From Rhizobiaceae bacterium (lineage in GTDB: Bacteria > Pseudomonadota > Alphaproteobacteria > Rhizobiales > Rhizobiaceae): a DNA stretch of 64,000 bases. The notes under the pieces were generated by a model that was not told the DNA's origin, made no database searches, and saw only the letters and a program-made list of their open reading frames with translations. Location: positions 62,001 through 126,000 of the forward strand of contig JANQMU010000132.1 of assembly GCA_028279875.1 (NCBI GenBank). Reading direction: 5' to 3'. Shown here piece by piece: positions 3,813 through 61,854 of this stretch (its first letter is position 1; every line of letters starts with the position of its first letter). The translations under genes were made by a program, and so were the position numbers.

Positions 3813-4763
3813 CTACTGGGCAGCGGCTTTCGGAACGGCCGTGAACACACCCATTCCGGTCAACCAGGCATCGACGGGTTCATAATATTCGACGGTCCCT
3901 TCATACTCACCGGCTTCCTGCAGGCAGGCCAGAGCAGCAAACCAGGTGCGCACCTCGTGGCCACCACGACCACCCGTCCGCGTCAGGACATCGTCGGGCA
4001 TCTGATCCAGCGTCGTCAGATTACCGGCCATGAATGCATCGAGCAGGCCTTTGTCCCATTCCGGGTCCAGCGGCAGGAGTTCGGACTTGCCTTCGCGCGC
4101 TTTCACGCCTTCGCCAAGCACCCGATTTGTCCGCGCAAACCGTTGCTGGAACGTCATCTCACGCCCTTCGATCAGCATTTCGCGCACCTGCGGATTGGCT
4201 GTCGCGAGCGCCGGTACGGGCGGATCGTGAGACAGGCCTCCCGAGCCCATGACGAGGATCCGCTCCGGTCGTGCAGCGGCCCATTTGCCGACGGCGCGCC
4301 CAAGCGCACGGACCCGGTCAAAGGTCGGCCGCGGGGCCGCGGCGGAGTTCACGAAGACAGGAATAAAGGGCGGCATTTCATGGCGCTCCGACAGCAATTC
4401 CAGCGGCTGGACTGCCCCGTGATCAACGGCGATTTTATAGGAAACCGCCGTGTCCACGCCCTGATCGACGATGGACTGGGCCAGATCCTCGGCCACCGGG
4501 ACAGGCAATGTCAATTTGCCCGCAGCAGAGCCGTAGTCACCGAGGGATTCGCCTTCGATGCCGACGCAGAATGAGGGCATGAGCCGATAGAAAAACCCGT
4601 TTACATGGTCCGGATAGAACATGATGACCAAATCGGGTTCCAGCGCCGCAACCTTGTCGCGCACTGTGTCGAGGGCATCGTTGAACGCCTTCTCGGTTTC
4701 TTCCGCCGCGCGGATTTTGTCCAGCAACGGACTGTGCGACATGCAGACTGATCCAACAAGCAA
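3813..4763 (-). CDS. mhpB: Class III extradiol dioxygenase, 2,3-dihydroxyphenylpropionate 1,2-dioxygenase-like
   Basis: This is a LigB-fold, Fe(II)-dependent enzyme that opens 3-substituted catechols next to the hydroxyls. Motifs shared with E. coli MhpB are SHSPL at the N-terminus, PDHVNGFFY, MPSFC, GDYGSAAG, SYKIAVDHGAVQPLE and GSGGLSHDPPVP. The start chosen is TTG at 4763, with GGAGG 7 nt upstream, giving 316 residues against 314 in E. coli. A longer ATG-initiated frame exists but has no ribosome site and does not align. It is divergent from the mhpC-like gene, with a strong palindrome between them. The exact ring substituent is unknown. Confidence 0.92.
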   Translation of the reverse strand: MLVGSVCMSHSPLLDKIRAAEETEKAFNDALDTVRDKVAALEPDLVIMFYPDHVNGFFYRLMPSFCVGIEGESLGDYGSAAGKLTLPVPVAEDLAQSIVDQGVDTAVSYKIAVDHGAVQPLELLSERHEMPPFIPVFVNSAAAPRPTFDRVRALGRAVGKWAAARPERILVMGSGGLSHDPPVPALATANPQVREMLIEGREMTFQQRFARTNRVLGEGVKAREGKSELLPLDPEWDKGLLDAFMAGNLTTLDQMPDDVLTRTGGRGGHEVRTWFAALACLQEAGEYEGTVEYYEPVDAWLTGMGVFTAVPKAAAQ

Positions 4764-4886
4764 TGTTTGTCCTCCCCTTTGTATTTTTGCCCCTTCATCG
4801 CTTTGGGAGCAGGTTGTTGGACCCGCATGTCGGGTCCCGTGCAATCGGGCCACAAGTGACGTATCACCACTTTACATCTTTGATAG

Positions 4887-4904
4887 TAAAATGCTAGCAT
4901 TTTA
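4887..4904. promoter_or_regulatory. Operator of the aromatic-module GntR regulator: 18-bp perfect palindrome
   Basis: The 18 bp TAAAATGCTAGCATTTTA is a perfect palindrome with core ATGCTAGCAT at 4891-4900. It lies 128 bp upstream of the mhpB-like TTG and 211 bp upstream of the mhpC-like ATG in a divergent gap. The same core recurs in the other promoter gaps of this module, so a shared FCD-GntR operator is inferred. The rest of the 351-bp gap shows no gene. Confidence 0.75.
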
Positions 4905-5114
4905 TTGTCAAATCGGTCGTTCGACTGTCCGGGCTCCGATATTGACAGTTTGTCGCGGCAACGACCGTTTGGGAGGGCGGAATGCTGGCGACGTCAAACC
5001 ACGCAATGGCCGCAACTGCGGTGATCTGGATGCCGGAAACGACCCCTCAATCAGTCACGGCAGCCGCAGATATCGTTGCCTGAATCAGCAAACCCATCCC
5101 ATCGGAGACCATTT

Positions 5115-5981
5115 ATGGGCAAGCAATACACCGAGGCCGAAACCAGCCGTTTCGTGACCGTTCCCAAAGACGGCAAGGATCATGAAATCCACTACAATGA
5201 CTGCGACCCCGGCTCGGGTGGCGATACCGTCATCATGCTGCACGGGTCCGGTCCCGGCGCCACCAGCTGGGCCAACTTCAATCGCAACATCACACCGCTG
5301 GCCGATGCCGGTTACCGGGTGGTCCTGCTGGATGTTCCCGGCTGGGGCCAAAGCTCTCCCATCGTCTGCAACGGGTCGCGTTCGCATCTGAACGCGCATT
5401 TCGTCAAAGGATTCATGGATGCCGAGGGCCTAGAACGGGCACATCTTGTCGGCAACTCGATGGGCGCGCAAAGCTGCACAGCCTTCACGCTCGACAATCC
5501 CGACCGGGTCGGAAAGCTCATCCTGATGGGCGGCGGCACGGGCGGGATCAGCCCGTTCCAGCCCATGCCGACCGAGGGGATCAAGCGGATCATGAAGCTT
5601 TACCGCGACCCCACGGTCGAGAATATCAGGGCGCTGATGGAGATCTTCGTTTTTGACACCAGTGAGTTGACCGAAGAACTGTTCGAACTGCGGCTCAACA
5701 ACATGATGAGCCGGGAAGAGCACCTGAGCAACTTCGTCAAGAGCTTCGAACTCGACCCCAGACAATATCCGGATTACGGACCGCAACTGACCAAAATCCA
5801 GGCGGACACCCTGATCATCTGGGGACGCAATGACAGGTTTGTGCCGATGGATGCCGGGCTGCGCCTGTTGGCGAGCATCCCGAACTCGCAATTGCATGTT
5901 TTCAACAATTGCGGCCATTGGGCCCAGTGGGAGCATGCCGACCGGTTCAACCGGATGGTCCTTGATTTCCTGACCCATTAA
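5115..5981 (+). CDS. mhpC: Alpha/beta hydrolase, meta-cleavage product (C-C bond) hydrolase
   Basis: This 288-residue serine hydrolase has the same length as E. coli MhpC and resembles it throughout. It would cleave the ring-fission product (2-hydroxy-6-oxonona-dienedioate type) to 2-hydroxypentadienoate and a carboxylic acid. Visible elements are oxyanion motif HGSGPGA (43-49), nucleophile elbow GNSMGA with Ser115, Asp240 in WGRNDRFVP and His268 in [11 protein letters not shown]. The start at 5115 has GGAG 7 nt upstream; an in-frame ATG at 5076 lacks a ribosome site. It acts directly after the divergent dioxygenase. Confidence 0.92.
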
Positions 5982-5988
5982 AATGTTA

Positions 5989-6013
5989 GCCTGCCGGCGT
6001 GTTGCCGGCAGGC
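5989..6013. terminator. Hairpin between convergent genes
   Basis: A perfect 10-bp stem, GCCTGCCGGC/GCCGGCAGGC, with the 5-nt loop GTGTT, starts 8 bp after the hydrolase stop codon and 9 bp before the end of the convergent gene. There is no T-tract on either side, so termination strength is uncertain. Confidence 0.6.
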
Positions 6014-6021
6014 GGGACCCG

Positions 6022-6846
6022 TCACAAACGGCTCGGATGAAGGTGTTCTGTTGCCAGGCCCGGCCAGTCCGCCTGGCGCGCCGGATCGTCGAAAAATGGT
6101 GTTTCCCCTTCCGCAAGGACGTCGAGGATTTTCCGGCAAAGGCCATGCGGGGTTTCGTCCCACGCGCAGATTCCCTGTCTGAACGCAATGACCGGCGTGT
6201 CGTCCACACGGCAGCTGCCGAGCGGGGCCGCCATGGCAGCATTCATCTTTTCCAGCGTTGCATCATCGATCGGCAGAAACCGGGATCCGGCCGGGATGAG
6301 AGGCGTCGTGACATCGCCTTCAAGCGTCACGAGGTTCCAGCTGGTTGCCGCCAGTGTCCCATCGGCAATCAAGGGTGCCAGATCGGGTGGCCGACTGTCG
6401 ATGAGGTCCACCTCCCCTTTCAGACCCCAGCCGTCGAAAAGAAGCGCTTCGGTCAGCAGGCGCACCGATGACGGGCGCGGTGGGCAATGGACGGCCCTGC
6501 CCTTCAGGTCTTGCGGGGATTGAATGGCCGGATCAAACACGGAAATTCCGAAGCCCACATCATAAAGGGATGCCAGGAGGCGAAGATCATCATTGGCGCG
6601 TGTGTAGGAATGCCATTGCGGGCCGGTCTGCCGTATCGCCGGAAGCAGATCGACCGCCGTCATGATCGGCAGACGCATCGCGCGCTCCGATGCCTCCAGA
6701 TGACAGATATCGTTCACGGCCTCCGGAAGCGCGACGGCCTCCACCGTGTTGACAATGCCCGCTGCCAACAGCCGTTTCCCCAACACTTCGTTCAACGCAT
6801 GCATGCGAATGGTCGCCGGTGCCGGGGAATAGAGCGTCAGCGTCAT
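6022..6846 (-). CDS. TAXI/NMT1-like solute-binding-domain protein without signal peptide
   Basis: This is a 274-residue protein. The start ATG at 6846 overlaps the dctM stop (ATGA), so translation is coupled to the TRAP permease. The motifs SPQDLKGRAVHCPPRPSSVRLLTEALL and DLLPAIRQTGPQWHSYTRANDDLRLLASLYD resemble TAXI-type or NMT1-like periplasmic binding proteins. The N-terminus (MTLTLYSPAPATIRMHALNEV) has no export signal. The operon already has a normal DctP. It may be a cytoplasmic ligand-binding or sensing protein, or its export leader may have been lost; the family assignment is by motif impression only. Confidence 0.6.
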   Translation of the reverse strand: MTLTLYSPAPATIRMHALNEVLGKRLLAAGIVNTVEAVALPEAVNDICHLEASERAMRLPIMTAVDLLPAIRQTGPQWHSYTRANDDLRLLASLYDVGFGISVFDPAIQSPQDLKGRAVHCPPRPSSVRLLTEALLFDGWGLKGEVDLIDSRPPDLAPLIADGTLAATSWNLVTLEGDVTTPLIPAGSRFLPIDDATLEKMNAAMAAPLGSCRVDDTPVIAFRQGICAWDETPHGLCRKILDVLAEGETPFFDDPARQADWPGLATEHLHPSRL

Positions 6847-8198
6847 CCGACCACCTGTCTTGGTAAATAGAGCGAAATTTCCGGGAATATGGCGAGCAGG
6901 ATGATCATGGCCAGCATCGCGAACCAGAACGGCCAAATGCCGCGGAATATGCGCCCCATCGGCACATCCGGCGCGATGGACTTCACGATGAACACGTTGA
7001 TGCCGACGGGCGGGGAGATCATGCCCATCTCCAGCGCGATGACGACGATGATCCCGAACCAGATCAGATCCCATTCCAGGCCGATGGCGATGGGAATGAC
7101 GACCGGGATCGTCAGAACCAGCATCGCCATCGTGTCCAAAAACATGCCCAGGACCAGATAGGCCAGGACGATCATGATCAGGATGCCGTAGTCCGGTATC
7201 GGCAAAGCGACGAGTATCTCGACCAGCCTCTGCGGCACTTCGGTCAGCGACATGAACGGGATGAAGACGAAGGCGCCGATCAGGATCAGGAAGATCGTGG
7301 CCGTGGCGCTCATGGTCTGCAGGACGATGTCACGCAGGCTCGCGATTGACAGCCGCCGTCGGGCGACGGCAACGACGAAGGTCAGAAATGCCCCGACGGA
7401 CGACGCCTCCACCGGCGTGAAAAACCCCGTATACATGCCCCCGATCACCAGGACGACGACCAGAACGATGGGCAGGGACGCGACAACCGAACTCCACCGC
7501 TCGGCCGCACCGGCCCGCTCGCCGCGGGGACCGGCCGCCGGATGGCGGCGCGTTATGAGCGAAATGGCGACGATGAACAATATGGTGAGCAGTATTCCGG
7601 GAAACACACCCGCCATGAAAAGGCGCCCGATACTCTGCTCCGTGAGAACGGCGTAGATGATCATCCCGCCGGATGGCGGGATCAGAAAGCCGAGGGTCCC
7701 GCCGGCCGCGACAGATCCCGTCGCCAGGGAGTCACTGTAATTGTACCGCCTCATGGCGGGCAGGGCGACACGGCCCATCGTGACGGCGGAGGCCAGTGAA
7801 GATCCCGAGAGCGCCGCAAACCCCGCACAGGCCGTTACCGTCGCCGAAGCCAGCCCGCCGCGCATGTGCCCCATCCAGCGATAGGCGGCACGGAAAAGGT
7901 CGGCGGACATGCCGCTGGCTCCTGCGATGCTGCCCATCAGGATGAACATCGGGATAACCAGCAGATTATAGTTGGACGCCGCCTCGAATGTCTCGCCGGA
8001 CAGATTGGAAAAGGCGATGCGCCAGCTTCTCTCCCAGGCCATGTTCGCCGGCATGTCAAAGCTCAGAAAACGCGCCGCATTGGCGAAGACCGTTCCGAAA
8101 AATCCGACACCCAGCATGGCAAGGGCGACCGGCAGCCGCAGCGCCATCAGAACGAACATGACGACGAGACCGATGAGACCGATGGAGATCAGGCTCAT
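6843..8198 (-). CDS. dctM: TRAP transporter large permease, DctM family
   Basis: This 451-residue protein has about 12 hydrophobic segments along its length and the DctM-type pattern GVFPGILLTILF and PPVGINVFIVKSIAP near the C-terminus. It is the main membrane subunit of a Na+-coupled TRAP uptake system in the inner membrane. Its start overlaps the dctQ stop by 4 nt, and its stop overlaps the TAXI-like gene. Location within the mhp-like module suggests transport of an aromatic or related carboxylate; this is inference. Confidence 0.93.
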   Translation of the reverse strand: MSLISIGLIGLVVMFVLMALRLPVALAMLGVGFFGTVFANAARFLSFDMPANMAWERSWRIAFSNLSGETFEAASNYNLLVIPMFILMGSIAGASGMSADLFRAAYRWMGHMRGGLASATVTACAGFAALSGSSLASAVTMGRVALPAMRRYNYSDSLATGSVAAGGTLGFLIPPSGGMIIYAVLTEQSIGRLFMAGVFPGILLTILFIVAISLITRRHPAAGPRGERAGAAERWSSVVASLPIVLVVVLVIGGMYTGFFTPVEASSVGAFLTFVVAVARRRLSIASLRDIVLQTMSATATIFLILIGAFVFIPFMSLTEVPQRLVEILVALPIPDYGILIMIVLAYLVLGMFLDTMAMLVLTIPVVIPIAIGLEWDLIWFGIIVVIALEMGMISPPVGINVFIVKSIAPDVPMGRIFRGIWPFWFAMLAMIILLAIFPEISLYLPRQVVG

Positions 8199-8737
8199 AT
8201 GTCGTCATCCGATGTCAGATGAATGGACTGGATCGGACGACCCGCGACCAATCGCACGAAATCGACAGCCAGGATGACCGCATAGACTGCGGTCGAAACC
8301 GCCAGGATCCGATAAAACGGTCCAAACGAAATCACCAGTTGCTGCGATGCCTGGCCAAATCGCGCGGCTTCCCCGCCAGCCTTCCAGAGTTGCCAGGACA
8401 GGACCGCCACAAGACCGATGGCGATGAGTTTCATCAAGGCCAGGGTCACATTGGCGAATCGGCGCTTCATGTAAGGTTCCAGAAGCTCGATCTCGATATG
8501 CGCGCCGGTGCGTGCGCCGAACGGGATTGCAATGGCCACGACCGTGACCAAAGCCAGGACCATCAGGTCCTCGGCTCCGCGGATCGGGTCATTGAGCGCC
8601 TTGCGCATGATCAGGACGTTGAAGGTCGACAGAAGGGTCATGAAGGCCAGCGTCGCGCCGCCCGCGATGAACACCACCCGGGACAGGGCTCTGTCCCACG
8701 CGCCCGTGCCTCGCGCCGAAGGAAGAGAATCATCCAT
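8195..8737 (-). CDS. dctQ: TRAP transporter small permease, DctQ family
   Basis: This 180-residue protein has four transmembrane segments and a typical DctQ layout (VVFIAGGATLAFMTLLSTFNVLIMRKAL, then EDLMVLALVTVVAIAIPFGARTGAHIEIEL). It forms the membrane complex with DctM. It lies between dctP (71-bp gap with a hairpin) and dctM (4-nt overlap). Confidence 0.92.
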   Translation of the reverse strand: MDDSLPSARGTGAWDRALSRVVFIAGGATLAFMTLLSTFNVLIMRKALNDPIRGAEDLMVLALVTVVAIAIPFGARTGAHIEIELLEPYMKRRFANVTLALMKLIAIGLVAVLSWQLWKAGGEAARFGQASQQLVISFGPFYRILAVSTAVYAVILAVDFVRLVAGRPIQSIHLTSDDDI

Positions 8738-8763
8738 CGTGTTTTCCAGTTGAGCTGGCCGCG

Positions 8764-8801
8764 CCGGGCTGAAGAGACCTCATGGATTCCCTTCAGCCCG
8801 G
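8764..8801. other. Intercistronic hairpin between dctP and dctQ
   Basis: The 11-bp perfect arms CCGGGCTGAAG (8764-8774) and CTTCAGCCCGG (8791-8801) flank a 16-nt loop just after the dctP stop. It could stabilise the dctP mRNA or attenuate read-through so that binding protein exceeds permease. Similar hairpins follow two other binding-protein genes in the window. Confidence 0.65.
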
Positions 8802-8808
8802 TGATCAC

Positions 8809-9825
8809 CTAATCCGACAAGCCATGCAGATCGTTGTAGATCCCACGGGCATTGGGAATGCCTTTCGCCTCATAGGACTGAAAGATCTCTTCAAGTCCGC
8901 CGGCAACCGCAGCATCCATTTTGGCGCGCTCCTCATCGGTGACCGTAATGAACTCAAAGCTCGGATCGTCCATCGCCTTCATGCCCGCAAGCGCATCCGT
9001 GTCGGCATTGTGGAAACTTGCGGAAGCAACCTTGGTGAAGGCCTCGCCGGCAAGCTCGTCAATCACCGCGCGTTGTGCCTCCGGGAGGGCCTGATATCGC
9101 TGCTTGTTCATCGCAAAATAGACGGTCTGGAATTGCGGGGGCACATTGTCGATGTAGTACGTCGCCACTTCGCGCCAGTTCCAGGGCGGCATCATGTTGT
9201 TATGCGCGGCAACGGCACCATCAATCGTCCCTGAAGACAGCGCGGTATAGATTTCCGTCACCGGCATCTGCACGGAAACCCCGCCCATGGCCTCGATCAG
9301 AGGCCCCATGGATGCCGCATAGGGAACGATTTTCGCGCCCTTCCAGTTTTCCAGGACCGACAGATCGCGCGTCGCCGCGATGGACAGGGCTGCCGGAAAA
9401 CCGATTCCAAGAAAGACGACATCGTCGAATTCCTTGGCAAAGTGCTTGTCCCAGTTGGCGATAAACGCAGCGGAAAGCTCGTTTGAGTCCTTTGCCGTGC
9501 CTGGCGGTACGGTCAGCATGGCAACGGGGAATAGGTCGGGCGTGTAGCCTGCGACACCCAGAACGGCATCAGCCACACCCTCGACGACACGACGGTATTG
9601 CTGAACGGGCCCTGCGCCCAACTGACCGGCCGGGTAGACACGCACGGTCAACTCGCCATTGGTGCGCTTGGCAACTTCTTCCCCGAACCAGTCCCAGACA
9701 TTGGTGTTCGTATGGTGCTGCGGCGGTACGAATGTCGCCACTGTCAGCTCATCGGCAAGGACCGGCGCAGCAAGAAGTGACACAGCCGCGACAATCGCGC
9801 CAAGGCCCAGATTGAATTTCCTCAT
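8809..9825 (-). CDS. dctP: TRAP transporter periplasmic solute-binding protein, DctP family
   Basis: This 338-residue protein has a Sec signal peptide (MRKFNLGLGAIVAAVSLLAAPVLA). DctP features include VRVYPAGQLGAGPVQQYRRVVEGVADAV and the ligand-site region TEIYTALSSGTIDGAVAAHNNM. It is the first gene of dctP-dctQ-dctM-TAXI-like. GGGAGG precedes the ATG. An ATGCTAGCAT operator sits 127 bp upstream of the start, nearly the same distance as in front of the mhpB-like gene, so co-regulation with ring cleavage is inferred. Confidence 0.93.
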   Translation of the reverse strand: MRKFNLGLGAIVAAVSLLAAPVLADELTVATFVPPQHHTNTNVWDWFGEEVAKRTNGELTVRVYPAGQLGAGPVQQYRRVVEGVADAVLGVAGYTPDLFPVAMLTVPPGTAKDSNELSAAFIANWDKHFAKEFDDVVFLGIGFPAALSIAATRDLSVLENWKGAKIVPYAASMGPLIEAMGGVSVQMPVTEIYTALSSGTIDGAVAAHNNMMPPWNWREVATYYIDNVPPQFQTVYFAMNKQRYQALPEAQRAVIDELAGEAFTKVASASFHNADTDALAGMKAMDDPSFEFITVTDEERAKMDAAVAGGLEEIFQSYEAKGIPNARGIYNDLHGLSD

Positions 9826-9951
9826 TTGATCCTCCCAAATCGCCCATTAAGTCGGGCATTCCTCTTCAGGGCCGTTGCTTCAGCTTGCCGTGAAAGACGG
9901 TCCGGCCTCTCCGCGCAGGCACATCACTCGTGCGACTGCATTTCGTGTAAC

Positions 9952-9961
9952 ATGCTAGCAT
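9952..9961. promoter_or_regulatory. ATGCTAGCAT operator upstream of the TRAP operon
   Basis: A perfect palindromic core, preceded by GTAAC, lies in the 263-bp gap between the dctP start and the end of the mhp-like operon. It is one of seven matching sites around this module. Confidence 0.7.
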
Positions 9962-10088
9962 CCTAAAATTATGAAGACAAGTTTTTTTCGGTTTTCGAGG
10001 CACGTCATCAAACGCAGATAGCTCAAATCGTCATGGTCTTTTGGAAAAAGAGCCGCCGTTCTGGATGAGCGACAGCTCGAATGACTTT

Positions 10089-10838
10089 CTAGAAACTCCC
10101 CGGATACAACCCGCCGTCGAGAAGCAGATTCTGACCGGTCATGTATCCCGCCTGGACACTGCAAAGAAATGCGCAGGTTGCACCCAATTCGGCCGGATCC
10201 CCGACCCGGCCGGCAACGGGATTGCCGGTCAGGTGTTTGGTGATTTCCTTGGATTTGCGAAGCCGGTCGGTGTCAAACGGGCCGGGCAACAGATTGTTGA
10301 TGGTAACGCCCCTGGACGAAAGCGACGGCGCAAGACCAAAGACGAAGTTCGTCAACCCCGCCCGTGTGGCATTGGACAACCCAAGCACCGGGATCGGGAC
10401 GCGCACGGCGGACGATGTGATATTGACGACCCGCCCGAAACCGCGTTCGGCCATTCCATCGACCGTCAGCCGGATCAATTCGATCGCCGACAGCATGTTG
10501 GCATCGACAGCGGCGACCCAGGTGTCCCGGTCCCAATCGCGAAAATCGCCCGGCGGCGGACCGCCGGCATTGTTGACGAGGATATCCGGCTTGCCCTGCG
10601 CAGCGTCGACCAGAGCTTCGCGCGTAGCCTGCTCGGTAATGTCGCCGGGAACGGTCGTAACGGAGACCGAAGGAGCCGCTTCACGGATGTCGTTCGCCGT
10701 CATCTCCAGGGTTTCTTCCGTTCGTCCGTTGATGACGACATTGACGCCTTCGCGTGCCAATGCCATGGCGCAGCCGCGCCCCAACCCTTTGCTGGCTGCG
10801 CAAATGAGGGCGGTGCGACCCGCAATCTGAAAATCCAC
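10089..10838 (-). CDS. SDR-fold protein lacking the usual Tyr-x3-Lys catalytic pair
   Basis: This 249-residue protein starts at GTG 10838, with GGGGAGG 6 nt upstream; longer frames run into the aldolase gene. The Rossmann part is normal (CAASKGLGRG, NNAGG). Where SDRs have YxxxK after the catalytic serine, this one has LGLSNATRAGL. That LSN-x-x-RAG form occurs in a divergent 3-oxoacyl-reductase-like SDR group (cd05344-like, from memory). It is the last gene of mhpD-mhpF-mhpE-SDR, 13 bp after mhpE. It may reduce a pathway ketone by an altered mechanism, or serve another role. Confidence 0.8.
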   Translation of the reverse strand: MDFQIAGRTALICAASKGLGRGCAMALAREGVNVVINGRTEETLEMTANDIREAAPSVSVTTVPGDITEQATREALVDAAQGKPDILVNNAGGPPPGDFRDWDRDTWVAAVDANMLSAIELIRLTVDGMAERGFGRVVNITSSAVRVPIPVLGLSNATRAGLTNFVFGLAPSLSSRGVTINNLLPGPFDTDRLRKSKEITKHLTGNPVAGRVGDPAELGATCAFLCSVQAGYMTGQNLLLDGGLYPGSF

Positions 10839-10851
10839 TGTCTTCCTCCCC

Positions 10852-11895
10852 TCAGACTTTTTCCGTTTCTGTTTTTCCGGCGAGATCAAGCGCCACGTCA
10901 ACGATCATATCTTCCTGCCCGCCGACCATGCGGCGGCGTCCCAGTTCGACCAGAATGGAACGGGTGTCGACACCATAGGCCTTCGAGGCCCGTTCGGCGT
11001 GAAGCAGGAAGCTGGAGTAAACCCCGGCAAATCCCAGACTGAGCGTTTCCCTGTCAACTCTGACCGGACGGGCTTGAAGCGGACGAACCAGATCATCCGC
11101 CGCATCCATCAGGGCGTAGAGATCACATCCATGCCGCCAGCCCTTTTTATCCAGAGCTGCAATCAGCACCTCCAGCGGTGCATTGCCGGCACCGGCGCCC
11201 ATACCGGCCAGGCTTGCATCCACGCGCATGGCTCCACACTCGATCGCGGCAATCGAGTTGGCGACACCGAAGGAGAGATTGTGGTGGGCGTGAACCCCCC
11301 TTTGTGTTTCCGGCCGCAGGACACGATCAAAGGCCTCCAGTCGACGGCGATAATCGGCCATGTCCATCGCACCGCCACTATCCGTGCAATAGACGCAAAT
11401 CGCACCGTAGCTTTCCATCTGCTTTGCCTGCTGCGCCAACGCGTCGGGGGCGATCATATGGCTCATCATCAGGAAACCCGACACATCCATGCCGAGGTCT
11501 CGCGCCGCGCCGATGTGCTGACGGGAAATGTCAGCCTCCGAACAATGGGTTGCAACGCGCACGGAGCGAACACCGAGCGAATGCGCCTGTCTGAGATCTT
11601 CAATCGTGCCGATGCCGGGAATCAAAAGCGTCGTCAGAACCGCGTTTCTGGTGGCATCGGCGGCGGCTTCGATCCAGGACCAGTCGGTCTCCTTGCCAAA
11701 ACCATAATTGAAGGAAGAGCCTTTCAGCCCATCCCCATGGGCGACCTCGATCGCATCGACACCTGCGGCATCCAGCGACGCGGCAATCTCGTGGACCTGC
11801 TCCGTCGTGTAGCGATGCCCGATCGAATGCATGCCATCGCGCAGCGTCACATCCTGAATATACAATGTGTCGGTCTTCGGATCGAAGCGGCTCAT
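10852..11895 (-). CDS. mhpE: 4-hydroxy-2-oxovalerate aldolase
   Basis: This 347-residue HMGL-fold, divalent-metal aldolase splits 4-hydroxy-2-oxovalerate to pyruvate and acetaldehyde. The N-terminal motif [20 protein letters not shown] and the internal EVAHGDGL and [15 protein letters not shown] match MhpE/DmpG. The start overlaps the acetaldehyde dehydrogenase stop by 4 nt. Coupled translation fits the known channelling complex of the two enzymes. Confidence 0.95.
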
Positions 11896-12830
11896 GCAGC
11901 ATCCTCCCTGCGACGCGTGGCGATCAGCTCCGCAGTGGACAGTGCCGCAGAGGTCATGATGTCGAGATTTCCGGCATAGGCGGGCAGGTAATGGGCGGCG
12001 CCCTCAACCTCCAGAAGCACGGTGGTTTTGATACCCCTGAACGTTCCATATCCGGGGATTTGCACCGGATCATTTTCACCAAAACGCTCGAACTGAACGG
12101 TTTGCTTGAGCCGGTAGCCGGGCACATAGGCTGCAACCCTGGCAACCATCTCGGTCACGGCGGCATTGATGGTCGCTTCCTCGGCGCCTTGCGACAGGAC
12201 AAACACAGTGTCACGCATGAGCAGCGGCGGTTCGGCCGGGTTCAAAATGATGATCGCCTTGCCACGACCTGCGCCGCCGACATTTTCGATGGCTCTGGCA
12301 GTCGTTTCGGTGAACTCGTCGATATTGGCCCGTGTGCCGGGGCCTGCGGATCTGGACGAAATCGAGGCCACGATTTCAGCATAGGCAACATCCGCGACGG
12401 CAGAAATCGCGGCAACGATCGGAATGGTCGCCTGACCGCCACATGTGACCATATTCACATTGGCCGCAGCCAAATGGTCCTCGCCATTGACGACGGGAAC
12501 CACATAGGGGCCAACCGCCGCAGGGGTCAGATCGACCATCACCTTTCCAGCCCGCGTGACCATTTCGCTGTGGCGGGCATGGGCACCGGCAGACGTCGCG
12601 TCAAAGACAATCCCGATCTCATTCCAGCACGGCAGGGCGGCGAGGCCATCAATCCCTTCATGGGTTGTCGCAACCCCCATGCGCGCTGCGCGCGCAAGAC
12701 CATCCGATGCCGAATCGATGCCCACCAGCGCCGCCATTTCCAATATCCGGGAACTGCGATGGACCTTGATCATCAAATCAGTACCGATATTGCCGGAGCC
12801 GATGATGGCAACTTTGGTCTTGGCACTCAC
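11892..12830 (-). CDS. mhpF: Acetaldehyde dehydrogenase, acetylating
   Basis: This 312-residue protein converts acetaldehyde, NAD+ and CoA to acetyl-CoA. The N-terminal Rossmann motif is [15 protein letters not shown], and the catalytic cysteine lies in [15 protein letters not shown], as in MhpF/DmpF. It starts at GTG, overlapping the hydratase stop as GTGA. It would form the aldolase-dehydrogenase complex with the next gene and take the acetaldehyde directly. Confidence 0.95.
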
Positions 12831-13615
12831 GACGAAACGCCATAGCTGAAGGAAACGGTTCCGAGACCCCCAATCCTTGCGACGACTTTGTCACCGGGTT
12901 CAATCGCAACCATCGGACCAAGGGCGCCGGTCAAAACAGTTTGACCGGCCTTCAGTCCAACCGTTCGAGCCAGCCAGGCGGCCGCATTGAGTGGATGGCC
13001 CAGACAGGCTGCGCCGGCTCCGACCGAGGCGATCTTGTCATTCACTTCAAGGACCATTCCGCATGTATAGAGGTCGAGGCCCTGGATCGAATGCCGTTCG
13101 GCGCCCAGGACATAGAAGGCGGATGATCCATTGTCTGCGACGGTATCGGCGAAGGTGATATTCCAATCCCGGATTCGACTGTCGACGACCTCAATGGCCG
13201 CGACGGCATAGTCAGTGGCCGTCAGAACGTCGTCGGCCGCAATATTCGGCCCGATCAGATCCTGTCCCAGGATCAGTGCGACTTCGGCTTCGGCCTTTGG
13301 CTGCAAGACGGTCGATGGGTCGAGGACGCCACCATCGGCTATTTCCATGTCGTCAAAGAGAGAGCCGTAATCCGGCTGATCAACGCCAAGCTGGGCCTGC
13401 ACTGCCTTCGCGGTCAGCCCGATTTTGTGGCCGGAGATTTTGCGGCCTGCTGCTTTCCAGTGTTCGGTATTGGCCGATTGGATGGCATAGGCCGTTTCAG
13501 CGTCTCCAGCGGAAACATCATCTCGAAGCGACGGGATCGGCGACCCCTTATACGCGTCGCGCAAGCGCATGGCATGGACGGCGATAGGCTCACCCTGGTC
13601 GGCTGTATCAATCAT
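12827..13615 (-). CDS. mhpD: 2-oxopent-4-enoate (2-keto-4-pentenoate) hydratase
   Basis: This 262-residue enzyme, near the 269 of E. coli MhpD, hydrates 2-hydroxypentadienoate to 4-hydroxy-2-oxovalerate. Recognisable segments are [23 protein letters not shown] and [10 protein letters not shown], typical of the FAH-fold hydratases. The start MIDTAD at 13615 matches family length; an upstream in-frame ATG would add 24 unrelated residues. It leads the operon mhpD-mhpF-mhpE-SDR, with a long palindrome about 240 bp upstream. Confidence 0.93.
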
Positions 13616-13856
13616 TGTCTTGACTCTCTGGTTGTTGCCGCAAACTCGATGAAGGAGAGATCCCGATCCACGATCGGGAGCAAACATCCGATCGGCGACA
13701 GAGACCCTGTCGGTTCAATTCCTTCGCAACCGGCCGCAATCGGCATGACGCCCCCCCCAAAACGCATCACGGCAGAACGGCAAATCGACGCCGTACGGCT
13801 CTCAAAGCGCAATTCAACGCGCTTCGACCGAAAGCCGTGTTCGGGGAAACCTCTCA

Positions 13857-13894
13857 TAAACTCTAGTAACATGCAAGCATGTTACTAGAGTTTA
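13857..13894. promoter_or_regulatory. 38-bp palindrome with ATGCAAGCAT core, overlapping the gntR stop
   Basis: Both arms match over 18 bp, interrupted only by the central AA. The core ATGCAAGCAT is at 13871-13880. The inner flanks GTAAC/GTTAC also appear beside other copies. It lies between the end of gntR, whose stop codon it includes, and the mhpD start, so it may act as operator for the mhpD operon and, as RNA, as a hairpin ending gntR transcripts. The remaining 13616-13856 gap shows no gene. Confidence 0.75.
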
Positions 13895-14587
13895 GTTTGC
13901 TTTTACGTGGGGACGATCCGGTGCTGTCTTCTTTGCCACATTGAGGATGTGCCGCAGAGCGACCTCATACGCCAGTTTGGCGTCCCCCTGATCGATTGCT
14001 TCCATGAGCATCCGATGATCGTCCTTGGCGTCGCCGATCAGATTCTCAAATCCGGCTGTTTGTGCGATGAAGAAGTCCGACATGTTGAAATTGGGGCGCT
14101 GACGTTCGGCAACCAATGCGGAATGGGCCATCTCATGGATGATTCCATGAAACTCCTGATTGAGAGACGCGAATTTCTGGGTACGCCTTCGATCGTCAGA
14201 GCGCAGGGCAATAATGTCACTCTGTACGGCGTGAAGCGATTCGATCTGCGTTTCAGTTCGTCTCTCCGCCGCAAGGCTCGCCAGCAACGCTTCCATATGA
14301 CCAAACATGAGATAGAAATCCTGAATCGCTGCTGCTGAGGGGTTGATCACCTGGCACCCGACCTGAGGCGCGATTCGGACAAAACCATCCGCAGCCAGAT
14401 GATTGAGTGCGCTCATCACGGGCTGGCGGCTCGTATTCGTTTCATCCACCAAGTCCTTGACAAAAATCTGCTCCCCGAACTTATAGGTCGCATCGACGAG
14501 GCGCTTGATGACAAGATCATATACGGTGTCTTTTTTGCTCAACTTTACTTCCCATGGCTGTCGGAGGGTCAAGGCTGTGGTGACCAT
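13892..14587 (-). CDS. GntR-family regulator (FCD type), probable controller of the aromatic module
   Basis: The 231-residue protein has a winged-helix domain at about 15-85 (VYDLVIKRLVDATYKFGEQIFVKDLVDE and SRQPVMSALNHLAADGFVRI) and an FCD ligand domain after it. The start MVTTALTL at 14587 is preferred because the longer reading frame runs through an operator-like site at 14618-14627. FCD regulators bind small carboxylates and usually repress. Its own promoter, the mhp-like genes, the TRAP operon, the monooxygenase, the GlcG-like gene and the cupin all carry ATGCWWGCAT, so it is the natural candidate for binding it. Confidence 0.88.
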   Translation of the reverse strand: MVTTALTLRQPWEVKLSKKDTVYDLVIKRLVDATYKFGEQIFVKDLVDETNTSRQPVMSALNHLAADGFVRIAPQVGCQVINPSAAAIQDFYLMFGHMEALLASLAAERRTETQIESLHAVQSDIIALRSDDRRRTQKFASLNQEFHGIIHEMAHSALVAERQRPNFNMSDFFIAQTAGFENLIGDAKDDHRMLMEAIDQGDAKLAYEVALRHILNVAKKTAPDRPHVKAN

Positions 14588-14617
14588 TTGACCTATGCAT
14601 CGGATTGTTATGCCAGC

Positions 14618-14627
14618 ATGCTTGCAT
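14618..14627. promoter_or_regulatory. ATGCTTGCAT site in front of gntR (autoregulation)
   Basis: The palindromic core, with a 2-nt TT centre, lies 31 bp upstream of the chosen gntR start. It suggests autorepression. The 14588-14993 gap is the divergent promoter region and contains this and one further site, with no gene seen. Confidence 0.65.
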
Positions 14628-14907
14628 TCTTGTCCAGCCACCATACGGCCTGCCATGGTGGCCAGTTGCTTTTGCATACGGCTCGACCATCGGAGTTGTC
14701 CATCCAAGCGGCAAACATCACGACACCCGGCGTAATTGGTTTGAGATCAAGGTAGACACTCGACCACAGGGTCACTGCAGCACCCTGAGCCGGGCACATA
14801 GGAGCTTCCTCGCCACATTATGTCGGTGCTGGCCGATAATCCGGTCATGAAACACGCAAGGACCCGCCCCGGGGAATGTCGAAGCATTCCAAAAAAAGAG
14901 CGTTAAC

Positions 14908-14917
14908 ATGCTTGCAT
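14908..14917. promoter_or_regulatory. ATGCTTGCAT operator upstream of the monooxygenase
   Basis: The core is flanked by AAC and GTA, giving ACATGCTTGCATGT as a 14-bp palindrome apart from the TT centre. It lies 77 bp upstream of the monooxygenase ATG, in a good position to block or activate its promoter. Confidence 0.7.
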
Positions 14918-14993
14918 GTAAGATTGAGTTTGCTATTGTTCCGTCTGAATTCGACGACACGTCGACAGAAATACGATCCAGGGAGGAAATCTG

Positions 14994-16832
14994 ATGCCGG
15001 AAACGCAAGGCAACTCAGAGAGCTATAACGCTGACGAACTGCGCAGGAAATACCGGGAGGAGCGCGACAAGCGTCTAAGGTCGGATGGAGAAGCCCAATA
15101 TATCGATGCCGAGGGAGAATTCGAAGAGTTCGACCGAGATCCGTATCTGAAGGAGGTTCTCACCCGCGATCCCATTGTTGAAGACCTCGAGGTGGCTGTC
15201 ATCGGCGGTGGTCTTGGCGGCCTCCTGACGGCGGTAAGCCTCAGGAAAAAGGGCATCAAATCCTTCCGCATTCTTGAACAGGCCGGCGATTTCGGCGGGA
15301 CCTGGTACTGGAACCGCTATCCGGGAATTCGATGCGATATCGAGGCCTATGTCTATATGCCCCTGTTGGAGGAAGTCGGCACCATTCCCAGCGAGCGCTA
15401 TGCCTCCGGAGGTGAGATTTTCGAACATTGCCGGGCAATCGGCAGGCATTTCGATCTGTATGATCGTGCCCTGTTTCAGACGGGGGTCGAGAGCATCAGG
15501 TGGAACGATGATTTGGCCCGATGGATCATTCGCACGAACCAGGGCGATGAAATCCGTGCTCATCATGTCACTGTCAGCCAGGGGCCGCTTGCCAAGGTCA
15601 AACTGCCGGGGGTGCCTGGCATCAAGGACTTCAAGGGAAAGATGTTCCATTCGGCCCGCTGGGACTATGACTATACCGGCGGAAACATGGATGGCGGTAT
15701 GACTGGCCTGAGCGACAAGCGCGTCGCGGTCATCGGTACAGGCGCAACCGCTGTGCAGATCATCCCGAAACTTGCCGAATCGGCGGCAAAAGTGCTGGTT
15801 TTTCAGCGCACGCCCTCAGCCTTGGCAGCGCGCAATAACTCCAAGACCGATGTCGACTGGTTCCGCAACCAGCCGAAGGGCTGGCAGCAGGAGCGGGTCA
15901 CCAACTTCGAAACCAACATCACGCCGGGAACACACCCGGAGAGTGACCTGGTCGCTGACGGCTGGACGGATTTCTTCCTGCGTGTCAGGGGGCATATGGG
16001 TGCTGCCGTCAAGTCCGGTGAGTCCTTCAATCCGATGGACGTCATCCAGAAGGCCGATTTCGAAAAGATGGAAAACCTGCGATCCCGGATCGGCGAGATC
16101 ATTGAAGACGAGGAACTCGCCGCACGGATGACACCCTGGTACAACTATCTGTGCAAGCGCCCGCTGTTCAGTGACGATTTCCTGGAATCGCTGAACAATC
16201 CCAATGTCGAAGTCATCGACACGGATGGCGCAGGCGTGACCAAAATCGACGAAACCAGCGTTCATGCCAACGGCACCGCCTTTGAGGTCGATTGCATCAT
16301 CTTTGCCACCGGATTCGACGTTGCCGCCGCCGCCCACAAGGTTGGCGGCTACGAACTGATCGGCCGTGACGGCGTCTCGATGGATGAGAAGTGGAAAGAC
16401 GGCATGCGCACGGTGCACGGCACGCAAATGCACGGCTTCCCCAATTTCCATGTCGTCGGGGCGATCTCCCAGGGCACCACCTCGTTCAACTACACCCATG
16501 CCCTCCAGATGCAGGCCTCTCACGCGGTCGATATCATCGGAAAATGTGTCGATGACGGCATTCGCAGCATCGAGGTCACGTCCGAGGCCGAGGATCGCTG
16601 GCTGGAGAAAATGAAAACCCCGCACAAGATTGATCTGGTGGCCTATTACCGTGCTTGTACGCCGGGCTTCCTCAACCATGAGGGCGATGTCGACGGCCAG
16701 CCGACTTTCCTTGGCAGCACCTATGGCGGCGGTGCGTTGGCATATAACGAACTCATCAAGGAGTGGCGCGGTGGCGATCAAATGCTGGCCGACTGCGACG
16801 TCATCTATGAAGCCGAAACAGTTCCCGGCTAG
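14994..16832 (+). CDS. FAD-dependent Baeyer-Villiger-type monooxygenase
   Basis: This 612-residue protein has an FAD motif GGGLGG (71-76), an NADPH motif GTGATA (248-253) and, between them, F-K-G-K-M-F-H-S-A-R-W-D (213-224). This fits the type I Baeyer-Villiger fingerprint FxGxxxHxxxW(P/D). An N-terminal extension of about 60 charged residues precedes the FAD domain, as in several larger BVMOs. The family inserts oxygen next to a ketone, giving an ester, using NADPH and O2. GGGAGG precedes the ATG. As the only oxygenase besides the extradiol enzyme, it may start the pathway on an aryl or cyclic ketone; this is inference. Confidence 0.88.
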   Translation: MPETQGNSESYNADELRRKYREERDKRLRSDGEAQYIDAEGEFEEFDRDPYLKEVLTRDPIVEDLEVAVIGGGLGGLLTAVSLRKKGIKSFRILEQAGDFGGTWYWNRYPGIRCDIEAYVYMPLLEEVGTIPSERYASGGEIFEHCRAIGRHFDLYDRALFQTGVESIRWNDDLARWIIRTNQGDEIRAHHVTVSQGPLAKVKLPGVPGIKDFKGKMFHSARWDYDYTGGNMDGGMTGLSDKRVAVIGTGATAVQIIPKLAESAAKVLVFQRTPSALAARNNSKTDVDWFRNQPKGWQQERVTNFETNITPGTHPESDLVADGWTDFFLRVRGHMGAAVKSGESFNPMDVIQKADFEKMENLRSRIGEIIEDEELAARMTPWYNYLCKRPLFSDDFLESLNNPNVEVIDTDGAGVTKIDETSVHANGTAFEVDCIIFATGFDVAAAAHKVGGYELIGRDGVSMDEKWKDGMRTVHGTQMHGFPNFHVVGAISQGTTSFNYTHALQMQASHAVDIIGKCVDDGIRSIEVTSEAEDRWLEKMKTPHKIDLVAYYRACTPGFLNHEGDVDGQPTFLGSTYGGGALAYNELIKEWRGGDQMLADCDVIYEAETVPG

Positions 16833-16842
16833 AGCCTTCTGT

Positions 16843-16879
16843 CACCGGCACCTTGCGGATCAGCCGCGCGGTGCCGGTG
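16843..16879. terminator. Hairpin between convergent monooxygenase and GlcG-like genes
   Basis: The 10-bp arms CACCGGCACC (16843-16852) and GGTGCCGGTG (16870-16879) enclose a second short GC stem. It lies 10 bp after the monooxygenase stop and 18 bp before the convergent gene end. No T-run follows, so it may be a structural or bidirectional terminator. Confidence 0.55.
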
Positions 16880-16897
16880 GTTCAGCAATCTATTGAA

Positions 16898-17317
16898 TCA
16901 GAGCGAAGCGGATTGCTCGGACAGGATGGCGATGGCCTTCATGGCGATTTCTTCATCCTCATGCGACTGCACACCCGAAACACCGACGGCCCCTGCCACC
17001 GCATCGCCGAATTGGATCGGAATACCGCCCTGAATTGGCAGGCTGCCGGGCAGCGTGAGCATCGAATTCTGGCCCGCTGTCACAAAATCCTCGAAGAGTT
17101 TTGTCGAGGCCCTGAACAACGCGGCACTCCTCGCTTTCTCCGCTGCAACCTGAGCGGTACCGGGCGCCGCTGCATCCATCCGTTGGAGGGCAAGGATGTG
17201 TCCACCGTCATCCACCACACAAATGGAGATGCTCCACTGCCTCCCGGCAGCAAATTCACAGCCGGCTTGCGCAATTTGAACGGCCGCGCGGCCATCAATG
17301 ACAGTTTTGGACTTCAT
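16898..17317 (-). CDS. GlcG/HbpS (DUF336) family protein
   Basis: This 139-residue single-domain protein matches the GlcG/HbpS family: SICVVDDGGHILALQRMDAA, then AAEKARSAALF and LPIQGGIPIQFGDAVAGAVGVSG. Members bind heme or cobalamin-like ligands or accompany catabolic operons, and their biochemical role is often unclear. No signal peptide is present. An ATGCTAGCAT site lies 115 bp upstream, placing it in the same regulon as the ring-cleavage genes. Confidence 0.88.
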   Translation of the reverse strand: MKSKTVIDGRAAVQIAQAGCEFAAGRQWSISICVVDDGGHILALQRMDAAAPGTAQVAAEKARSAALFRASTKLFEDFVTAGQNSMLTLPGSLPIQGGIPIQFGDAVAGAVGVSGVQSHEDEEIAMKAIAILSEQSASL

Positions 17318-17431
17318 TTCGTCATCCTGCTTATCTGTTTCACTCCGGGTTCCATTGATCCGAGGTCGTGAACAATGCTGTTCTGACCAACGGTGCAGTG
17401 GCTGAACATATCTACCGGAATATCCATAAAA

Positions 17432-17441
17432 ATGCTAGCAT
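17432..17441. promoter_or_regulatory. ATGCTAGCAT operator upstream of the GlcG-like gene
   Basis: The perfect core is preceded by ATAAAA. It is in the 484-bp divergent gap 17318-17801, which otherwise shows no gene and carries one further copy nearer the cupin. Confidence 0.7.
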
Positions 17442-17658
17442 ATCAATGAAGCTGCAATGTGGCTGCGCGGCAAGAAAATGACCTGCTGAACTGGAACCCA
17501 TCGGCCAACGGCTCTATCAGATCGATGATGCCATTTGCCTGTTTTTCACACTGTTTCCTACTGCGCTGCGAACTCCCGAAGCGAGTTGCTGACGCGCCGG
17601 GGGGATCGGTTCCCGGCACGATCCTATCTCATTATGACTTGCAAATTATCTCATTAAA

Positions 17659-17668
17659 ATGCTAGCAT
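17659..17668. promoter_or_regulatory. ATGCTAGCAT operator upstream of the cupin gene
   Basis: The perfect core, with TTAAA on its left and ACAAA on its right, lies 134 bp upstream of the cupin ATG. This matches the 127-128 bp spacing seen for the dctP and mhpB-like genes. Confidence 0.7.
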
Positions 17669-17801
17669 ACAAATATCAAATAACGGGAATGGTGGATACA
17701 CCCCTGTCACCCGTTGCATATGTCGCTTGCCGGATGTGGCGATCGAATGGCTCTCACGCCTTGTCACCCGCGATCCGACGAGCCAACAAGGGAGGATATT
17801 C

Positions 17802-18230
17802 ATGGCAGAACTCATCGATTTCGGTTCATTCACCGTCAATTTTCTGCGAGACAAACACGACACCGATGGCGGTTTGGACATGTTCGAACTGACCACGCAA
17901 CCGAGCGGCCGGATGCCGGTCCCGCATTACCATGACAGTTGGGATGAAACGGTCTACGGCGTTGAGGGTGTGACAACCTATGTCATCGACGGCGTCGATC
18001 ATCATATCGGACCGGGCGAGACGGCCTTTGTTCCGCGTAAGATTGTCCACGGCTTCGACAACCGCTCGGAGCAGGTGGCAAAGTGCATCTGCATTCTGAC
18101 GCCGGGCGTCCTCGGGCCTGAATATTTCCGCGAACTTGCTGCAGAAATCCGGACGGGAAATCCCGACCCCGCAGTGATGAAGGAGATCATGAACCGCTAC
18201 GGCTTGATCCCGGCTCCTCCCGGCAAGTGA
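17802..18230 (+). CDS. Single-domain cupin protein
   Basis: This 142-residue beta-barrel protein has metal-binding residues in PHYHDSWDE (His42, His44, Glu49) and His83 in IVHGFDN. The start at 17802 follows GGGAGG. Small cupins of this kind can be dioxygenases, isomerases or ligand sensors. It is last on the right in the GntR-controlled module, directed away from it, with its own operator copy, so it probably serves the same pathway. Confidence 0.82.
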   Translation: MAELIDFGSFTVNFLRDKHDTDGGLDMFELTTQPSGRMPVPHYHDSWDETVYGVEGVTTYVIDGVDHHIGPGETAFVPRKIVHGFDNRSEQVAKCICILTPGVLGPEYFRELAAEIRTGNPDPAVMKEIMNRYGLIPAPPGK

Positions 18231-45252: not shown

Positions 45253-45990
45253 TCACGGCGTGACGGCACCGGAGCCCTCGATCGCCTGTTCGAAGGTTGC
45301 GCGCGGCCGCACTTGAAACTTTTCGTTTTGGATTTCGGCATCGAACATCCGGTCGCAGCGAAAATACCGGACACCGTCTCGCTTCAGATCCCACGTGAGC
45401 AGATACCAAACTGGATAGTTCAGCACGAGGAGTTGCGGTTCGACCCACCGGTGACTTTTGTTGTTGGATCCATCCCGATATCCAAACGTCAATACACGCC
45501 GCTCAAAAAACGCACGACAAAGCGTATCCGCCACCGAATCGTCAAGCTGACCAAAACTGACCAGAACTGGAGCAGAAGCATTGGGGCCAATCAAAATGCG
45601 AGATTTCAGCGCCTCGATGCTCGGCCGAACCGATGGTGAGAAACTTGCGGTGAGTTTTCTGCGAACGGGAGCAAGATTGGTCAACATCCAGGGTGATCGC
45701 AACTGCTCGGCGATAGCAATACTCACGAGAAGATCGACGGCCTCCCGGTAGTTCAGGGTCAACCGCCCCACACCCCAGTTGCGGTGCAGACGAATACCGC
45801 CGCCCCGGCCGCGGTCGGCCTCAACAGGAATGCCGCGCTCTCGCAGAAGTGCGATATCGCGGAACAGTGTCCGCCTGCTGACACCGAGTTCGGCCGCGAC
45901 AGCATCAACTGTCATATGCGCATCGGCCTTTAGCCGACTTGTAAACAGCTCAAGACGTTCAATGCGGTTCAGTGTTCTGGAGCGACTCAT
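45253..45990 (-). CDS. HTH/WYL-domain transcriptional regulator (YafY/DeoR-like)
   Basis: This 245-residue protein has an HTH_11 domain (MTVDAVAAELGVSRRTLFRDIALLRERGIPVEADRG) and a WYL domain after it (VEPQLLVLNYPVWYLLTWDLKRDGVRYFRCDRM). WYL regulators respond to small ligands or nucleic acids. It is divergent from the ABM-like gene, with a palindrome between them, so it probably controls that gene and itself. Confidence 0.9.
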   Translation of the reverse strand: MSRSRTLNRIERLELFTSRLKADAHMTVDAVAAELGVSRRTLFRDIALLRERGIPVEADRGRGGGIRLHRNWGVGRLTLNYREAVDLLVSIAIAEQLRSPWMLTNLAPVRRKLTASFSPSVRPSIEALKSRILIGPNASAPVLVSFGQLDDSVADTLCRAFFERRVLTFGYRDGSNNKSHRWVEPQLLVLNYPVWYLLTWDLKRDGVRYFRCDRMFDAEIQNEKFQVRPRATFEQAIEGSGAVTP

Positions 45991-54169: not shown

Positions 54170-54838
54170 ATGACGACTTCATCGGAACGCGCCTATGAAT
54201 TCATCAAGCGGTGCATCCTCGACGGCAAATTCGCCAGCGGCGAGCGCCTTCCGGAGGATCGAATCGCATCCGAACTCGGCGTTTCGCGAACCCCGATCCG
54301 CGATGCCCTGCGCATGCTGCAGGCCGAGGGGCTGGTGACCAATGCGCCGAATTCGGGCGCCCGCGTCGCCGCCTGGAGCGAGGACGAACTGTCCGAGATC
54401 TCGCAATTGCGCGTCATGCTGGAGGGCTATGCGGCGGAGCTGGCAGCGGTCAAGATCGGCGCGGACACGCTCAATGAACTGGCAGGGCTCTGCGCCGAGA
54501 TGGAGGAAGGTGTCAGAAGCGGCACCACCGAAGGTCTCAGCCTGATGAGCGAAGCCAATCTGGCCTTTCACCGGAAAATCGTGCTGGCCGCCGGCAACAG
54601 CCGGCTTCTGCACGCGCTTGAGCCGTTATGGCATTTTCCCGTCGTGATCCGCAAATTCGCCATGTTCACGCCGGAGCGGCTGGAACGAAGCCTGTCCCAT
54701 CATCGCGAAATCGTCGAGGCGCTGCGCGAAAGGGATGCCGGCTGGGCCGGTTCCATCATGCGCACGCATATTCAGTCGGCGCGGGCTCTCGACACGACGC
54801 TGGCCAAGAGCGCGGACGCGCAGGCAAATGTTGCATGA
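54170..54838 (+). CDS. GntR-family regulator (FCD type) of the GTATAC regulon
   Basis: This 222-residue protein has a winged helix (AYEFIKRCILDGKFASGERLPEDRIASELGVSRTPIRDALRMLQAEGLV) and an FCD domain with the metal/carboxylate-type helices (ISQLRVMLEGYAAELAA, FHRKIVLAAGNSRLLHALEPLW, SHHREIVEALRERDAGWAGSIMRTHI). FadR-subfamily members bind TnGTnnnACnA, which the GTATAC sites match. It is upstream of a TRAP operon in the same direction. Confidence 0.92.
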   Translation: MTTSSERAYEFIKRCILDGKFASGERLPEDRIASELGVSRTPIRDALRMLQAEGLVTNAPNSGARVAAWSEDELSEISQLRVMLEGYAAELAAVKIGADTLNELAGLCAEMEEGVRSGTTEGLSLMSEANLAFHRKIVLAAGNSRLLHALEPLWHFPVVIRKFAMFTPERLERSLSHHREIVEALRERDAGWAGSIMRTHIQSARALDTTLAKSADAQANVA

Positions 54839-61736: not shown

Positions 61737-61842
61737 CGGCAACCTGCCTGATCGCATACCCGTATGCGGGGCCGAAGGGAGGCCTCAATCGGAAGACGTC
61801 CGTCACCGAGTCAAAATCGCATTTTCTCTCTGTCATGCCAGG

Positions 61843-61854
61843 ATTGTATACCAT
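61843..61854. promoter_or_regulatory. GTATAC-type operator (ATTGTATACCAT) of the OYE operon
   Basis: It lies in the 178-bp gap between the amidase stop and the OYE start, 107 bp upstream of the start. It matches the sites at 41726 and 53854 in the GTATAC core and flanks. Confidence 0.7.

Follow-up and report, generated by a model that had tools for sequence, protein, structure and literature searches.

The window analysed here is a 64,000-nucleotide stretch of a Rhizobiaceae bacterium genome (contig JANQMU010000132.1, positions 62,001 to 126,000). It contains an aromatic ring-cleavage gene module, a gene (gntR) for a GntR-family regulator with an FCD domain, and seven exact copies of the palindrome ATGCWWGCAT, all between positions 4891 and 17668, which are considered below as candidate operator cores. 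Copies of ATGCTAGCAT lie at 4891–4900, between divergent mhpB-like and mhpC-like genes; at 9952–9961, before dctP and the TRAP transporter operon; at 17432–17441, before an HbpS/GlcG-like gene; and at 17659–17668, before a cupin gene. The core ATGCAAGCAT at 13871–13880 precedes the mhpD-F-E operon. The core ATGCTTGCAT occurs twice, at 14618–14627 before gntR itself, where it would serve autoregulation, and at 14908–14917 before the gene for a Baeyer-Villiger-type monooxygenase.

The gntR gene is on the minus strand (13892–14587, 231 amino acids from the ATG at 14587). Its product matches Pfam GntR (PF00392, N-terminal winged helix-turn-helix, 42.4 bits, cut-off 27) and FCD (PF07729, C-terminal, 47.9 bits, cut-off 24.3). 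The NCBIfam models of named FCD regulators were not reached: PhnR, CsiR, NanR, and LldR scored 48, 39, 31, and 21 bits at cut-offs of 271, 218, 260, and 311. Because orthologues begin at that position in the alignment, the start codon is probably the TTG at 14542 rather than 14587 or 14707. Residues N143, H147, H191, and H213 are invariant in 9/9 aligned sequences and fit the FCD metal site, which we take to be a D/N-x3-H...H...H motif.

The enzymes of the module resemble those of mhp pathways to different degrees. By the curated NCBIfam cut-offs, an MhpB-like class III extradiol dioxygenase (3813–4742, minus strand; Pfam LigB) passes one of four models of MhpB, the 3-carboxyethylcatechol 2,3-dioxygenase (NF009910, 361 bits, cut-off 291), and scores under the cut-off of the other three, NF009907–NF009909. 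MhpF, an acylating acetaldehyde dehydrogenase (11892–12830, minus strand; TIGR03215, 456 bits, cut-off 282), and MhpE, a 4-hydroxy-2-oxovalerate aldolase (10852–11895, minus strand; TIGR03217, 559 bits, cut-off 286), also pass. An MhpC/BphD-like meta-cleavage product hydrolase (5115–5981, plus strand; Pfam Abhydrolase_1; TIGR03343, 353.6 bits, cut-off 462) and an MhpD-like 2-keto-4-pentenoate hydratase (12827–13615, minus strand; Pfam FAA_hydrolase; NF008461, 281.9 bits, cut-off 350) fall short. The mhpD-F-E operon ends in a short-chain dehydrogenase frame (10089–10901, minus strand), 70–77% identical homologues of which are present in five of nine relative loci. The TRAP operon (6843–9825, minus strand) comprises dctM (6843–8198), dctQ (8195–8737), and dctP (8809–9825); DctP is named by Pfam and NCBIfam, and the names dctM and dctQ were read from the sequence. 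Its last gene (6022–6846, minus strand) codes for a protein of unknown family, without a match in a Pfam scan and with ~40% identical homologues in loci L051 and L052 (tblastn). The remaining products are a type I Baeyer-Villiger-like flavin monooxygenase (14994–16832, plus strand), the HbpS/GlcG-like protein (16898–17317, minus strand; Pfam HbpS-like, 104.9 bits), and the cupin-domain protein (17802–18230, plus strand; Pfam Cupin_2, 53.3 bits).

An earlier note on this DNA had listed the seven cores, and we recovered each at its coordinates and with its centre. No further exact copy exists in the window, where 100 dinucleotide shuffles held 0.37 copies on average and 2 at most. The note's statement that every core is intergenic is true if gntR starts at 14587 (ATG) or 14542 (TTG); the gntR open frame itself extends to 14707. 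A spacing of 127–134 bp from the start codon, which had been given for several cores, was measured for two of eight genes only: the gaps from core edge to gene are 148 bp (mhpB), 214 bp (mhpC), 126 bp (dctP), 255 bp (mhpD), 30 or 75 bp (gntR), 76 bp (monooxygenase), 114 bp (HbpS-like gene), and 133 bp (cupin gene).

When one mismatch was permitted, the window contained 11 copies against 8.83 expected, which is not unusual; the signal is thus carried only by the exact or extended form. In the whole genome (6,886,902 bases, 164 contigs) the exact core occurs at 16 places. Seven of these are packed into 12.8 kb, where 0.017 would be expected from the density of the other nine (Poisson P ~7e-17). 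The genome-wide scan proposed in the earlier note did find copies elsewhere; among the eight that were scored with the 22-bp motif described below (C149 was left out), seven are weak (−3.5 to 4.5 bits) and one is strong. An extended pattern, AMATGCWWGCATNYWA, composed after inspection of the sites, has exact matches at five places in the genome, all within the cluster; site 17432 differs from it by one mismatch and site 14618 by two.

Nine loci with GntR orthologues (45–52% identity), from sphingomonads and a Marinicaulis bin, were obtained by scanning genome contigs. With the window left out, a 22-bp motif was learnt by one-site-per-segment expectation maximization (EM) on 25 intergenic segments of these loci, which were picked by gene adjacency after the DNA had been inspected, so that the choice was not blind. 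The motif, nnaCATnCTtGCATGCTAGttn, reached a log-likelihood of 290, compared to 75–83 in eight shuffled sets, and a site of at least 13 by motif score is present in 22 of the 25 training segments. A palindromic EM (width 18), which counted overlapping registers repeatedly, was discarded in favor of this procedure. When the window was scanned, the seven sites took ranks 1–7. The best 22-mer is that of the monooxygenase site (14904–14925, 29.3 bits), followed by those at 13863–13884 (25.2 bits), 17655–17676 (21.2 bits), 4883–4904 (21.1 bits), 9948–9969 (20.9 bits), and 14614–14635 (17.6 bits; its flanks fit less well, and a one-mismatch core copy overlaps at 14610), and the weakest full operator candidate is at 17428–17449 (15.1 bits). 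The same seven rank first in the whole contig (153,391 bases). The next, unrelated match in the window scores 12.7 bits (61827–61848); it lies 70 bp before a flavin oxidoreductase gene (60570–61757, minus strand), beside the sequence TGTATAC. Sites of 15 bits or more numbered 34 in the nine training loci, versus 0.5 expected from shuffles, and 25 in eight non-training loci (the window, L077–L079, and L124–L127), versus 1.3 expected.

The motif follows the regulator. Similarity to GntR, and not the motif, decided which loci were collected; each was then scored for a site of at least 15 bits within 500 bp of gntR, the nine training loci by leave-one-out. A site was found in 16 of 17 loci whose GntR homologue is ~38% identical or more, and in 2 of 32 loci with more distant homologues (Fisher p 7e-10, loci treated as independent; since related loci are not independent, this value is only a guide). 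Loci L082, L083, L086, and L087 nearly duplicate each other. The comparison left out 3-kb repeats of counted genes, loci fetched for motif matches only, and loci without a tblastn match (L023, L026, L031, L032, L035, L038, and L045, i.e., seven of the 29 loci L017–L045). A motif learnt without the window thus selects the same seven sites and tracks GntR relatedness, which supports the earlier note's proposal of a local FCD-GntR regulon, with the correction that the operator is longer and the 10-mer forms only its core. A scan of ten module proteins found no other regulator and none of the IclR family.

The relatives share genes as well as sites. Near gntR, mhpB-like (~39–41% identity) and mhpC-like (31–34%) genes are present in 9/9 orthologue loci, the monooxygenase (57–59% identity) in 8/9, at least part of mhpD, mhpF, or mhpE in 5/9, and the exact 10-mer core in 3/9. 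In relatives, sites are also placed in front of mhpD-like genes, of a TonB receptor gene, and of a Rieske oxygenase gene. The TonB receptor of L049, behind an operator at 12684, is split into two open frames (12721–14942, plug and barrel apart), and that of L053 is a single frame. Outside the training set, four strong sites are present in locus L077, including one in front of gntR/mhpC and another in front of mhpF. Plasmid homologues of GntR (Pseudomonas, Rhodococcus, Gordonia; 4 of the 23 records with a match) had sites in all four cases, before gntR on the Rhodococcus and Gordonia plasmids, and mhpB was present in three of the four plasmid clusters. The DNA of the module itself has almost no near-identical match on plasmids. 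Among 297 genomes of the organism's own family, only two others had matches at E <1e-20, both remote, and in 41 close genomes no other match was better than 2e-15. Because these matches are so few and remote, it is probable that the module came from outside the family.

ATGCWWGCAT represents a single register of a longer operator that has three parts. The best-case site in the window extends to TAACATGCWWGCATGTTA, and site 13871 is the center of a 38-bp palindrome (13857–13894, 18 of 19 pairs). All seven window sites favor a symmetry axis in the WW center, which is in part a consequence of their having been located through this core. Among 39 sites in relatives (the seventh L053 site was left out), 22 favor an axis 4 bp away, in GCATGC, 10 favor the WW axis, and 7 tie; the mean symmetries on the two axes are close to each other (4.85 and 5.18 of 8). 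A GC-N2-GC core is retained on either axis, and the operator can therefore be read as a series of three GC steps spaced by 4 bp. The sister-register pattern CTWGCATGYWAG was also tried genome-wide and was not enriched (21 forward matches versus 38 for the reversed control); its exact matches outside the window are two, of 14.5 and 6.4 bits (L090, L092).

A local regulator of an mhpB-C-D-F-E type pathway is known in Escherichia coli, MhpR, which belongs to the IclR family, whereas the regulator of the window is GntR/FCD. The Rhodococcus ohp operon, as reportedly described by Powell and Archer in 1998, is said to have a similar gene set and a GntR-type regulator, ohpR. Among the matches listed in searches of open-licence PMC papers, no GntR protein described as regulating mhp or phenylpropionate modules appeared, and literal motif strings gave unrelated content. 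Pseudomonas plasmids pSTY/pTTS12 carry a ~39% identical GntR beside mhpB, a hydrolase, mhpD, mhpF, mhpE, and a cupin gene, with same-motif sites between mhpB and gntR, some of them with the exact 10-mer; unlike the window, the stretches shown lack a Baeyer-Villiger-type monooxygenase. This Pseudomonas plasmid cluster has been named as one for phenylpropionic acid degradation, in an excerpted text that does not mention the GntR protein (PMC9537497).

Excerpts on better studied FCD-GntR proteins offer further comparisons. Atu1419 of Agrobacterium fabrum, a VanR-group member concerned with hydroxycinnamate degradation whose DNA complex has been solved, is described as a repressor of aromatic-acid catabolism that acts at several 10-bp palindromes of identical sequence, ATGTATACAT, located in its own promoter and in neighboring ones, with Arg45 contacting the G at position 3 (excerpt of PMC7797058). 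In an HMMER alignment, Arg54 of the window GntR corresponds to Arg45, and the window core has the same ATG-N4-CAT layout, keeping G3 and C8. The operator center differs (TATA in Atu1419, CWWG in the window), sequence identity is ~20%, and the pathway is another one. A structure model of the window GntR shows six C-terminal helices as in the VanR group, but its mean predicted local distance difference test score (pLDDT) of 59.5 is too weak to argue from; Foldseek with this weak model listed Atu1419 (VanR) among its matches, at template modeling scores of 0.43–0.46. NanR of E. coli, in which three half-sites are filled cooperatively by three dimers according to an excerpt of PMC8012715, is a precedent for three-part operators, with the differences, in the same excerpt, that it reads direct repeats (GGTATA), responds to a sugar acid, and has an N-terminal extension. 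Extra half-sites 7–12 nt from the center are attributed to many GntR proteins in an excerpt of PMC4494728.

The sites, their enrichment, their conservation with the regulator clade, and that clade's conservation with mhp-type genes were computed; binding by GntR, repression, and an inducer are what we infer. It is very likely that the seven palindromes serve as operators for the FCD-GntR at 13892–14587, most likely an autoregulated repressor that a pathway compound would release. A GntR dimer would read an operator of ~18–22 bp, consensus AACATRCTWGCATGYWAGTT, with ATGCWWGCAT at its core, and would control seven promoter regions, those of the mhpB/mhpC pair, the TRAP operon, mhpD-F-E, gntR, the monooxygenase, the HbpS-like gene, and the cupin gene. 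The repressor would sit on or near these promoters. Site 4891 falls in promoter-like sequences of both divergent genes (both strands), and site 17432 lies inside a promoter-like site on the minus strand, although one promoter-like site that overlaps a core uses the core itself as −10 box; the overlap is no more than suggestive of the position of a repressor. FCD proteins bind small organic acids according to the excerpt of PMC4494728, which makes a substrate or a ring-cleavage product a likely inducer. Once its FCD domain had bound a substrate or an intermediate of ring cleavage, GntR would leave the DNA, and uptake, the monooxygenase, ring cleavage, and the lower pathway would then be switched on together.

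Several observations weigh against this regulation by GntR. Promoter-like sites in the scan were not enriched (7 versus 5.4 expected). The core is GC-N2-GC and not the GT...AC boxes usual in the FadR subfamily; that consensus is usual, not defining, and the excerpt of PMC4494728 names NanR and BioR as exceptions. One outside core copy, L003, scores 18.3 bits, though it lies within open frames on both strands. Three of the 25 training segments have weak sites only (6.3–8.1), and six column-permuted motifs peak at 9.3 to 19.6 bits in the window. Of the four DNA-contact residues named for Atu1419, Arg45 alone is conserved in the window GntR, in which V43, Q55, and M58 stand in place of Glu34, Thr46, and Arg49; R54, V43, and M58 are invariant in 9/9 orthologues. 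Locus L078, with a 47% identical GntR, has no site; its gntR adjoins a phage integrase gene, no module gene was found there, and this setting may explain the absence. Conversely, two of the distant loci, L080 and L044, do have a site near gntR. In L080 (35% identical GntR), three ATTCTAGAAT palindromes at 545, 1927, and 1962 represent a changed operator core, and it is possible that regulator and site co-diverged.

We consider it unlikely that GntR binds these sites as an activator, or activates some units and represses others. Only sites 4891 and 17432 overlap promoter-like sequences, and the others lie 30–255 bp ahead of the start codon, without a mapped promoter; the site before gntR, however, fits autorepression, and Atu1419, the structurally closest DNA-bound relative named, is a repressor with palindromes over promoter elements in the excerpt of PMC7797058. 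Occupation of the sites by another DNA-binding protein is very improbable. A regulator scan, which covered 20 of ~62 window frames, showed candidates of the LacI type at 25424 and the WYL type at 45253 and a second FCD-GntR at 54170, and an IclR protein in L053 and a MarR protein in L077 are encoded beside the clusters of relatives. Against these stands the fact that the loci were collected on GntR similarity alone and the motif tracks it, and that the second FCD-GntR (54170–54838) has no motif match of 9 bits or more nearby. That the repeats are hairpins or terminators, or else remnants of a repeated element, can hardly be credited: the 38-bp palindrome around site 13871 does score as a terminator-like hairpin on the plus strand, but no plus-strand gene ends there, and the other six sites are short, with no such stems after them in the hairpin listing. 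The flanks vary among the sites, unlike those of a copied element, and the motif is common to relatives, yet the module DNA is almost without a near-identical plasmid match.

Regulation by the local GntR, as the preferred reading, would make the module an example of a well-known type of control, in which a catabolic cluster is governed by a local GntR repressor. Its operator, GC...GC in place of the family consensus GT...AC, departs from what is usual. A broader and tentative possibility is that a distinct FCD-GntR clade, which occurs in Alphaproteobacteria, Gammaproteobacteria, and Actinomycetota and is both chromosomal and plasmid-borne, moves together with mhp-type modules and with its own operator code, three GC steps spaced by 4 bp (TGC WW GC AT GC WA). 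Two overlapping palindromes offset by 4 bp would be possible in such an operator, the window using one axis and many relatives the other; this could let two dimers bind opposite faces, or the choice of axis could tune promoter strength. The results link clusters of similar type in sphingomonads with those on Pseudomonas and Rhodococcus plasmids, and predict which genes belong to the pathway, among them those for the protein of unknown family, the HbpS-like protein, the cupin, and the Baeyer-Villiger-type monooxygenase. They also provide a testable regulator–operator pair for an aromatic ring-cleavage module, and such pairs serve as sensors of aromatic compounds.

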